Assembly: GCF_001678475.1 (NCBI RefSeq)
Contig: NZ_JTJR01000010.1
Coordinates: 1 to 64,000, forward strand
DNA from: Gallibacterium genomosp. 3
GTDB taxonomy: Bacteria; Pseudomonadota; Gammaproteobacteria; Enterobacterales; Pasteurellaceae
Reading direction: 5' to 3'
DNA length: 64,000 bases
Of the stretch, positions 24,862 through 61,335 are shown piece after piece; the first letter of the stretch is position 1; each line of letters begins with the position of its first letter. Made by a program: the position numbers and the translations under genes. Below the pieces are notes generated by a model. The model was not told the DNA's origin. It saw only the letters and a program-made list of their open reading frames with translations, and ran no database searches.

Positions 24862-25446
24862 TTAAGCTCGGAATCCATTTAAGCGATTCATCGCCTTATC
24901 AATTCCATCTTTAATTAAAATTTCGATACAACTTTCGGCTTCATCTAACGCTTTATCAATCAAAGTTTGATCTTGCGGAGATGGTTTACTTAACACATAA
25001 CTTGCGACTAAATTCTTATCACCAGGATGCCCAATACCAACCCGTAAACGATAAAAATTTTTGCTATTGGCAAGCTGTGCAATAATATCTTTCAGACCAT
25101 TATGCCCGCCGTGACCACCACTAAGTTTTAACTTCACACTACCGGGTGGTAGATCTAATTCATCATGAATAACTAAAATTTCTTCTGGCAAAATCCGATA
25201 GAAACTTGCCAATGCACCAACTGACTTACCACTTAAATTCATAAATGTCGTTGGTATTAACAAGCGTACATCTTGCCCAGAAATTGTTGCTATTGCGGTT
25301 TTGCCAAAGAATTTATTTTCATCTTTCAATGTTAAGTTAAAACGGCGAGTGATCCGCTCAATTAGCCATTCTCCAGCATTATGGCGTGTATCAGCATATT
25401 TACTGCCTGGATTGCCTAATCCTACAATCAATTTTATTTTTGCCAC
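24862..25446 (-). CDS. pth: Peptidyl-tRNA hydrolase Pth
   Basis: A 194-residue enzyme that recycles tRNA from peptidyl-tRNA dropped off ribosomes. The active-site region [17 protein letters not shown] has the catalytic histidine at about residue 22. Further family segments are [21 protein letters not shown] and [12 protein letters not shown]. It is the upstream gene of pth-ychF. Confidence 0.95.
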
Positions 25447-25586
25447 AATTTATTACCCTGTCGCTAAAAACGGCTTGCTATTGTATGCAAAAAACCCTGT
25501 TTCTACAATCGCCAAATATTTTTATATCACTTACCCCACTTACTCTACATTAGTCTTCACAAAATATTCCTTTTCTATAAAAAAAC

Positions 25587-25623
25587 TGTTATCTTATTGA
25601 GAACATTTCTCAATAAGATAACA
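25587..25623. promoter_or_regulatory. Perfect 16-bp inverted repeat directly before ybaN
   Basis: TGTTATCTTATTGAGA at 25587-25602 is exactly mirrored by TCTCAATAAGATAACA at 25608-25623 with a 5-base loop. The right arm ends 3 bases before the ybaN ATG, so it contains the ribosome-binding region (AAGATAAC). It could be an operator for a dimeric repressor or an mRNA hairpin hiding the start. The core TGAGAAC-A-TTTCTCA matches the Fur 7-1-7 consensus TGATAAT-N-ATTATCA at 10 of 14 positions. Confidence 0.75.
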
Positions 25624-25626
25624 ACA

Positions 25627-26004
25627 ATGATACGCTACATTTATATTTTTCTTGGTTTTCTCTGTCTAGGACTTGGTATTTTAGGCGCTTTTCTACCCGT
25701 ATTACCAACCACACCATTTCTACTTTGCACTCTCTTTTTCTTTGGTAAAAGTTCATCTCGTTTAGAAAGTTGGTTTAAACAAACAACTATCTATCATAAA
25801 TATCTAAAAACCTTTAATGAACAACGTGCTTTAACCAAAAAAGCAAAATTTTCTATTTTATCTATCTCTACTCTAATGATGGCACTGTCATTTTATGCAA
25901 TCCCGAATATTTTCGGTAAAATTGCTATTTTGCTCTTGTTACTCGTCCAATATTGGTTCTTTTTCTTTTGGATTAAAACTATCCAATATACTCATAATGA
26001 CTAA
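25627..26004 (+). CDS. ybaN: YbaN family inner-membrane protein (DUF454)
   Basis: A 125-residue small membrane protein with helices at about 5-25 and a pair near 75-115. The DUF454 signature GILGAFLPVLPTTPFLLCTLFFF is followed by FFGKSSSRLESWF and the YHKYLKTF segment. Function is unknown. The ATG at 25627 was chosen over one 10 codons earlier (25597), which would fall inside the inverted repeat. It is divergent from pth and convergent with the Dcu transporter. The palindrome at its start suggests tight control. Confidence 0.85.
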   Translation: MIRYIYIFLGFLCLGLGILGAFLPVLPTTPFLLCTLFFFGKSSSRLESWFKQTTIYHKYLKTFNEQRALTKKAKFSILSISTLMMALSFYAIPNIFGKIAILLLLLVQYWFFFFWIKTIQYTHND

Positions 26005-26021: not shown

Positions 26022-26057
26022 ATAAATCCATCTTACTATTAAGAAAGATGGATTTAT
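26022..26057. terminator. Bidirectional terminator between ybaN and dcuB
   Basis: Perfect 13-base inverted repeat ATAAATCCATCTT / AAGATGGATTTAT with a 10-base loop, followed on the plus strand by TGTTTTA. It lies between the convergent ends of ybaN and dcuB. Confidence 0.75.
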
Positions 26058-27516: not shown

Positions 27517-27686
27517 TTTTTTTAATATAACTACCTACTTGATATCAAATTTAATTTTTATCTCAAATAAAGAATCTATGAAGAAATAATTTGTAATAAT
27601 TTTACAAGCAATAAATAACAAATAAATAAAATCTAATTAATATTTATTATCATTACTTAAACCTTAGTACAGTAAAACACTTTTTT

Positions 27687-31647: not shown

Positions 31648-31954
31648 CATCTCCCCTACCCCCTCTTCACAAGTGAAGAGGGGAATCTTTCGGTGAAAAG
31701 GCTTAGTTCGTGATTTTTGGCTAGTCTGTAAAGGCTTAACCAGTGATTTTTGGCTAGCTTGTATTAACGTTTTAGTTAATCGGTATTAATCATTTTTGCA
31801 ATGTTACATTGGTGTGTATCTAATCAGTGTTTATCCTTTTAGCGAATCAAGATTACGTATTTTTAACGCATCTGTTCTTACCAAAATCTACTAAATATTC
31901 TTCAAGTGCTGAACGGCTCCCCTCTTCACTAGTGAAGAGGGGCTGGGGGAGATG
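31648..31954. repeat. Hairpin repeat family 1, composite 307-bp element
   Basis: The ends are near-perfect inverted copies: CATCTCCCC at 31648 with hairpin CCTCTTCAC/GTGAAGAGG, and at the other end hairpin 31919-31942 followed by GGGGGAGATG ending at 31954. Each end is itself a palindrome. The inside (about 235 bases) has two copies of GTGATTTTTGGCTAG and no convincing gene. It is about 85% identical by eye to 47712-47970. The arrangement resembles a non-autonomous mobile element (MITE-like) or two terminators flanking a spacer. Confidence 0.75.
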
Positions 31955-35698: not shown

Positions 35699-35737
35699 CA
35701 TCCCCCCTCTTCACAAGTGAAGAGGGGGGGGGGGATG
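35699..35737. repeat. Hairpin repeat family 1, solo copy between menC and birA, with G11 tract
   Basis: CATCCCCCC, then CTCTTCAC, a 2-base centre and GTGAAGAG lead into 11 G (35724-35734) and ATG, ending exactly before the complement of the birA TAG stop at 35738. It lies between convergent genes and would work as a terminator on either strand. Confidence 0.8.
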
Positions 35738-47711: not shown

Positions 47712-48149
47712 CATCTCCCCTACTCCCTCTTCACAAGTGAAGAGGGGAACCTCTTGATGAAAAAGCTCAGTTAGTGATTTTTGACTAGTCTGTAAAGGTA
47801 CAGCCAGTGATTGTTGGCTAGCTTGTATTAACATTTTAGTTAATCAGTATTAATCATTTTGCAAGACTACATTGGTATGTATCTAATCAGTGTTTATCGT
47901 TTTAGCTAATCAAAATTACTTATTTTTAACCATCTATTCCTACCAAAATGTACTAAATACTCTTCAAGTGCATCTCCCCTAACCATCATTTACAAATGAA
48001 TAGGGGAACCTTTTGGTAAAAAGGCTCAATTCGTGATTTTTGGCTAGCTGTAGTGGTATACTAATTTTGCAGTCTGTAGTGATCCACTAAATTATCAAGC
48101 ACAAAAAAATACCCCTCTTCAGTAGGTCTGAAGAGGGGTTAGGGGAGAT
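47712..48149. repeat. Hairpin repeat family 1, two joined copies between a LysR gene and groEL
   Basis: Begins CATCTCCCC with hairpin CCTCTTCAC/GTGAAGAGG, runs through about 235 bases matching 31684-31918 (GTGATTTTTGACTAGTCTGTAAAGG, TATCTAATCAGTGTTTATC and others), and meets a second, degenerate left end at 47971. It then continues for about 140 bases to hairpin 48112-48138 and GGGGAGATA. The order suggests one copy inserted in, or recombined with, another. The rest of 47665-48162 holds no gene. Confidence 0.75.
48112..48138 (-). terminator. groEL terminator formed by the repeat's end hairpin
   Basis: Perfect 11-base inverted repeat CCCCTCTTCAG / CTGAAGAGGGG with a 5-base loop. On the minus strand it is followed by TA and a run of seven T, a strong intrinsic terminator 25 bases after the groEL stop. 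Confidence 0.85.
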
Positions 48150-61153: not shown

Positions 61154-61335
61154 ACCATCCTGAGGTGTTCGACAATGGGTTACGTCCCTGAGCCGATACT
61201 GATATATATTAGAGTTGGTTATCTACAATCGGTGAGCATGCTTGATTTATCAAGAAGCCTAATGAATGTAAAACTGACTCCCTTGAACCGTAGGGTTCAA
61301 GGACCGACCACCCGTATCGGCACCTCGGGTCCTAA
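61154..61335 (+). ncRNA. ssrS: 6S RNA (ssrS)
   Basis: The segment between zapA and fau has the 6S landmarks: 5' CCTGAGGTGTTCG pairing with 3' CGGCACCTCGGG, the CCCTGAGCCGATACT block, GGTGAGCATGCTTG with AGAAGCCTAATG, and the hairpin CCTTGAACC / GGTTCAAGG. 6S RNA mimics an open promoter and sequesters sigma-70 RNA polymerase in stationary phase. TACTAT at 61145 is a likely -10 box. Ends are approximate. Processing partner fau (ygfA) follows directly, as in many gamma-proteobacteria. Confidence 0.92.

Follow-up and report, generated by a model that had tools for sequence, protein, structure and literature searches.

The closest described counterpart of the element analysed here is the Fur-like site upstream of ybaN in Escherichia coli. 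In E. coli CFT073, ybaN is reported to be a direct member of the Fur regulon, and 34 of 35 core operons are regulated in the same way in MG1655 (PMC7157518); the gene is also listed in a table of the paper on the Fur pan-regulon (PMC10164565), and its control by Fur had been predicted earlier (PMC3136457; PMC3224099). Links between iron and DUF454, the family of the ybaN product, have also been reported. A DUF454 gene of Avibacterium paragallinarum is given as significantly up under iron restriction (PMC7970244), the iron-related genes listed for Actinobacillus seminis include a DUF454 protein (PMC13167830), and DUF454, TonB and haem oxygenase domains are described as co-occurring with type 11 secretion genes (PMC12282271). 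In Gallibacterium anatis, a receptor is reported to be under Fur control, and Fur boxes were predicted at the receptor and at fur (PMC9425032). A term search of the accessible text of an H. influenzae iron/heme paper (PMC2627913) gave no mention of ybaN or DUF, and our literature search found no title or abstract start concerning a Gallibacterium ybaN operator.

The Gallibacterium locus resembles these systems in some respects and departs from them in others. As in E. coli (PMC7157518; PMC10164565), a Fur-like site lies close upstream of the start of the same gene. However, the best match at E. coli K-12 ybaN comprises two registers that overlap and has no extended perfect dyad, and its start is 58 nt from the start codon as compared with 31 here. 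The Pasteurellaceae Fur boxes reported for NTHi hrrF are close to or overlap the promoter (PMC4144887), as we propose for ybaN, although three boxes are predicted before that sRNA gene and one at ybaN. Fur-like boxes at Gallibacterium iron genes (receptors, exbB) share the 9-1-9 layout, and several of them also carry the TTCTC half-site variant.

The window, that is, the whole stretch of 64,000 nucleotides that was analysed, comes from the genome of a Gallibacterium species distinct from G. anatis, G. salpingitidis and genomospecies 1, which makes four species in the comparison. Within it, ybaN (25627-26004, plus strand) encodes a DUF454 membrane protein of 125 aa (Pfam PF04304, E = 3.1e-34) and is preceded by a perfect inverted repeat (25587-25623), whose arms (25587-25603 and 25607-25623) are 100% complementary and enclose the loop CAT; three bases separate the end of the dyad from the ATG at 25627. 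The original prediction of a perfect repeat at this distance from ybaN is confirmed, with arms of 17 nt rather than the 16 claimed. Its view that such a dyad is unlikely by chance is also borne out, since no other perfect dyad in the window exceeds 13 bp and 20 first-order shuffles of the window yielded at most 12 bp with loops of 0-20. Folded as RNA, the dyad reaches -20.8 kcal/mol (z -7.1). It occurs once in its own genome, and its inner 31 bp, with at most 3 mismatches, occur in 2 of 140 Pasteurellaceae genomes, one copy each, the second being that of G. salpingitidis; these counts rule out a repeated element. Elsewhere in the window, dyads at 31919-31942, 35702-35729 and 48111-48139 share a common arm, CCCCTCTTCA (CCCCTCTTCACTAGTGAAGAGGGG and near copies), and are perhaps a repeated terminator-like element.

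The four Gallibacterium species differ around ybaN. The gene upstream (25446-25627 region) is a divergent pth in the window, an aminotransferase gene in G. salpingitidis and, by eye, a clpX-like gene in G. anatis and genomospecies 1, while the downstream dcu-type gene is convergent in the window species and G. salpingitidis and co-directional in the other two. Over four loci, the window species shows 79.6-87.0% identity to G. salpingitidis versus 74.2-81.1% to G. anatis and genomospecies 1, which are 88.5-93.1% identical to each other. The dyad itself is identical at 32 of 37 positions between the window species and G. salpingitidis, and the 50 bases upstream at 17 in an ungapped comparison.

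The centre of the dyad (25596-25614, ATTGAGAACATTTCTCAAT) forms a predicted Fur box of the 9-1-9 type. The agreement of the core with the Fur 7-1-7 pattern at 10 of 14 positions had been counted correctly, but by itself the count discriminates little, as 92 window positions reach it; likewise, 82 window positions reach the 12 of 18 matches that the site shows to the 9-1-9 consensus. Both consensus counts were therefore dropped as evidence. A Fur matrix of 19 columns was derived from 12 Fur-like sites at other iron genes of the four Gallibacterium genomes (TonB-dependent receptors, exbB and one substrate-binding protein), with zero ybaN sites. Twenty of 47 iron-gene and control loci were eligible for training, namely 15 receptor loci, 4 exbB loci and one substrate-binding protein locus (L144), a hand-chosen row included because its site looked Fur-like; the 12 kept were those with a best site agreeing with the E. 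coli/Vibrio consensus at 14 or more of 18 positions, so that the training sites were themselves selected by consensus match. Four loci labelled tolQ by eye, fur, feoA and the remaining substrate-binding-protein loci were left out of training. The fur and feoA upstreams contain no strong Fur-like site, the best matching at 11-13 of 18.

Scored with this matrix, 25596-25614 reaches 15.7 and, despite its 12 of 18 consensus matches, ranks second among 63,982 window positions (1.5e-6 per position under a Markov background), a rank that it keeps when training is limited to the six sites that come from the other species. Leave-one-out scores of the 12 training sites range from 12.7 to 26.2, and 10 of them exceed that of the ybaN site. 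In G. anatis, G. salpingitidis and genomospecies 1, no position of the 6.4-kb ybaN locus scores above the equivalent site. A further Fur site overlapping this one in the outer arms was ruled out, the other registers within 24 nt all scoring -2.1 or less. The top match of the window lies at 27636-27654 (ATTAATATTTATTATCATT, score 19.3), in the divergent region between DcuA/DcuB-type and PTS-like genes, and may be a further Fur site or merely AT-rich DNA; in the other three species, the four best matches of the locus include nothing comparable.

The box is also conserved at orthologous ybaN genes of the family. The sample comprised 98 upstream regions, from which 7 duplicates on the same contig and one further locus (L065) were removed to leave 90, our own included; about 27 further family genomes with matches lie outside it. 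Matrix scores were at least 10 in 49 of the 90 upstreams, 5-10 in 20 and below 5 in 21, as compared with 2, 12 and 76, respectively, in the reversed controls, and shuffled controls reached 10 in 32 of 1800 cases. The 21 low-scoring relatives indicate that the box is not universal in the family. Most of the high-scoring boxes (43 of 49) start 30-42 nt before the start of the protein match, and the aligned boxes show a -10-like A/T pattern just upstream.

Each of the four Gallibacterium genomes has one FUR-family protein. That of the window genome scores 224 bits against an NCBIfam Fur equivalog cut-off of 146, falls far below the Zur cut-off, and has Fur proteins as its best relatives of known structure. 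By these sequence measures, the sole FUR-family protein of the genome is a true Fur.

From the dyad, the matrix match, its conservation and the single Fur, we infer Fur binding, the position of the promoter and the direction of control at ybaN. In our reading, to which we assign a probability of roughly 0.87, the centre of the dyad (25596-25614) is a predicted Fur operator that overlaps the -10/+1 region of the ybaN promoter. When iron is plentiful, Fe-Fur on the palindrome would block RNA polymerase; under iron shortage Fur would leave, and transcription of ybaN would begin near 25602, so that the short leader would lack the hairpin. The original prediction had offered an operator, with Fur as candidate, and an RNA switch as the alternative. 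The operator is favored by an independent matrix, by conservation in the family and by the published links of ybaN to Fur elsewhere, and the RNA switch lacks support as the main mechanism (see below). The core of the dyad is, on this sequence evidence, ordinary, being a predicted Fur operator at a gene already known from the Fur regulon, and the unusual feature is the perfect extension only.

The extension differs between its two sides. The left outer arm contains a predicted extended -10 element, TGTTATCTT (25587-25595, plus strand), which was assigned by eye, with TG at 25587-25588 and the hexamer at 25590-25595; a sigma-70 scan of the window did not list it. The arm, CTGYTATCTT, reads by eye as TGnTATCTT; all four Gallibacterium species retain it, whether or not they have the dyad, and the Fur box lies beside this visually assigned element in each of them. 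A start about 7 nt after the hexamer would give a predicted ybaN 5' leader of about 25 nt (25602-25626, plus strand). The right outer arm, AAGATAACA (25615-25623), mirrors the -10 region and adjoins the ribosome-binding region, and it does so in the window species and G. salpingitidis only. A minus-strand promoter using the mirrored -10 was judged by eye and set aside, given a weak -35 and a face-to-face geometry. Beyond the 19-bp box, the two sides are complementary at 9 of 9 positions in the window and at 8 of 9 in G. salpingitidis, versus 4 and 3 in the other two species and a mean of 3.5 in the 49 high-scoring family loci. Since other Gallibacterium Fur-like sites pair at only 1-5 of these 9 positions, the outer arms go beyond what a single Fur box accounts for. 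The compensatory changes that the original prediction proposed to look for in relatives are found in part: G. salpingitidis has the dyad with one compensated pair (C-G/T-A), but two of the four Gallibacterium species are without the dyad hairpin.

The simplest account of this asymmetry is that promoter function constrains the left arm and that the right arm may have been copied from it, as template switching can do. The extension would then have arisen in the lineage of the window species and G. salpingitidis, mirroring the -10 arm, perhaps through a polymerase that copied the left arm onto the right across the Fur quasi-palindrome. That the extension, though not the core, is a by-product of this kind falls just short of an even chance in our estimate. 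Such an origin is compatible with a Fur core and would allow a perfect dyad to be made and kept without selection for pairing. The mechanism has been described (PMC8794818), the changes are clustered, and the left arm is present in all four species while its mirror is confined to the sister pair; however, two species that are about 80-87% identical elsewhere have the same right arm, AATAAGATA, which could mean selection, and the event is undatable from four species. An operator for a regulator other than Fur would fit the perfect outer arms, which are unlike other Fur-like sites, yet it is highly improbable, given the agreement of the core with the Fur matrix, its conservation at ybaN, and the fact that the extended dyad, found in 2 of 140 genomes, recurs nowhere else. 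On the minus strand, RNA would be terminator-like because an A run at 25579-25585 (a T run on that strand) adjoins the dyad. The dyad could therefore be an intrinsic terminator for RNA antisense to ybaN, arriving from the convergent dcuB side and shielding pth. A terminator scan of the window sequence picks out a single terminator-like site at the dyad, its tail carrying 7 T (expected 0.3), and it is the species with the dyad that have a convergent dcuB-type gene, the others having a co-directional one. We nevertheless regard a terminator as quite improbable. The stem has only 4 G-C among 19 counted pairs, the interval between ybaN and dcuB has a hairpin of its own at 26022-26057, the two species that lack the dyad hairpin retain an A run of five, and the core found across the family would go unexplained.

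The remaining explanations act through RNA. Burial of the ribosome-binding region, as originally proposed, is seen in a modelled long RNA, in which the SD/ATG stretch is unpaired at 0.20 at 37 C, but less so in the predicted short transcript (0.47), which would lack the hairpin because transcription is predicted to start inside the dyad, with the -10 at 25590-25595. A response of ybaN translation to temperature finds no support, since modelled opening in the long RNA rises only from 0.16 at 25 C to 0.23 at 42 C and the helix looks too stable. An RNA thermometer or ligand switch at the ybaN leader could draw on the hairpin that covers the ribosome-binding region in the long RNA, but with a perfect helix that barely opens over 25-42 C in the model, a predicted start within the hairpin, no Rfam match at the dyad and no hairpin in two of four congeners, it is scarcely credible. 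No hairpin comparable to the dyad appears in the modelled RNAs of G. anatis and genomospecies 1, which still have the Fur box and the -10-like element. A known Rfam element was ruled out, with no match at the dyad or in the G. salpingitidis ybaN locus. The only gathering-level Rfam match of the window lies elsewhere and is 6S RNA (SsrS, 61154-61335; RF00013, 109.8 bits). The predicted start inside the dyad, the two species without a hairpin and the slight opening of the helix thus leave an RNA switch unsupported as the main mechanism. A dual element would combine the Fur operator in DNA with a hairpin that hides the ybaN ribosome-binding region on transcripts entering from upstream; read-through RNA would go untranslated, and transcripts from the ybaN promoter, starting inside the 5' strand, would escape the hairpin. 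This layout is reported, with experimental support, for the late promoter of phage T4 gene e, which lies inside a hairpin's 5' strand, the hairpin covering the ribosome site in longer RNAs only (PMC3014915); at ybaN it is a possibility with which the fold is compatible. The -10-like element within the 5' arm, the greater modelled hiding of SD/ATG in the long RNA, the compensated pair and, in G. salpingitidis, the co-directional aminotransferase gene whose end lies about 100 nt upstream all point this way. Against it, the divergent pth leaves no obvious source of read-through in the window, G. anatis and genomospecies 1 have a co-directional upstream gene but no hairpin, and the covariation amounts to a single pair in two species, so that a dual element is unlikely. 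Distinctly unlikely is the fuller version, in which one sequence would serve both as a Fur operator with a built-in -10 and as a hairpin silencing ybaN on upstream-entering transcripts, ybaN would be made only from its iron-controlled start, and, in one Gallibacterium lineage, an ordinary Fur box would have grown into a perfect 17-bp dyad under selection for such a double lock.

The preferred reading, a Fur operator at the ybaN promoter, adds ybaN, a DUF454 gene with no known function, to the genes predicted to be under Fur control in many Pasteurellaceae, which agrees with E. coli; this predicted control suggests a role in iron limitation. The perfect extension, in turn, offers a compact case in which to ask whether compensated changes in a dyad stem from selection on RNA pairing or from template switching at an operator.
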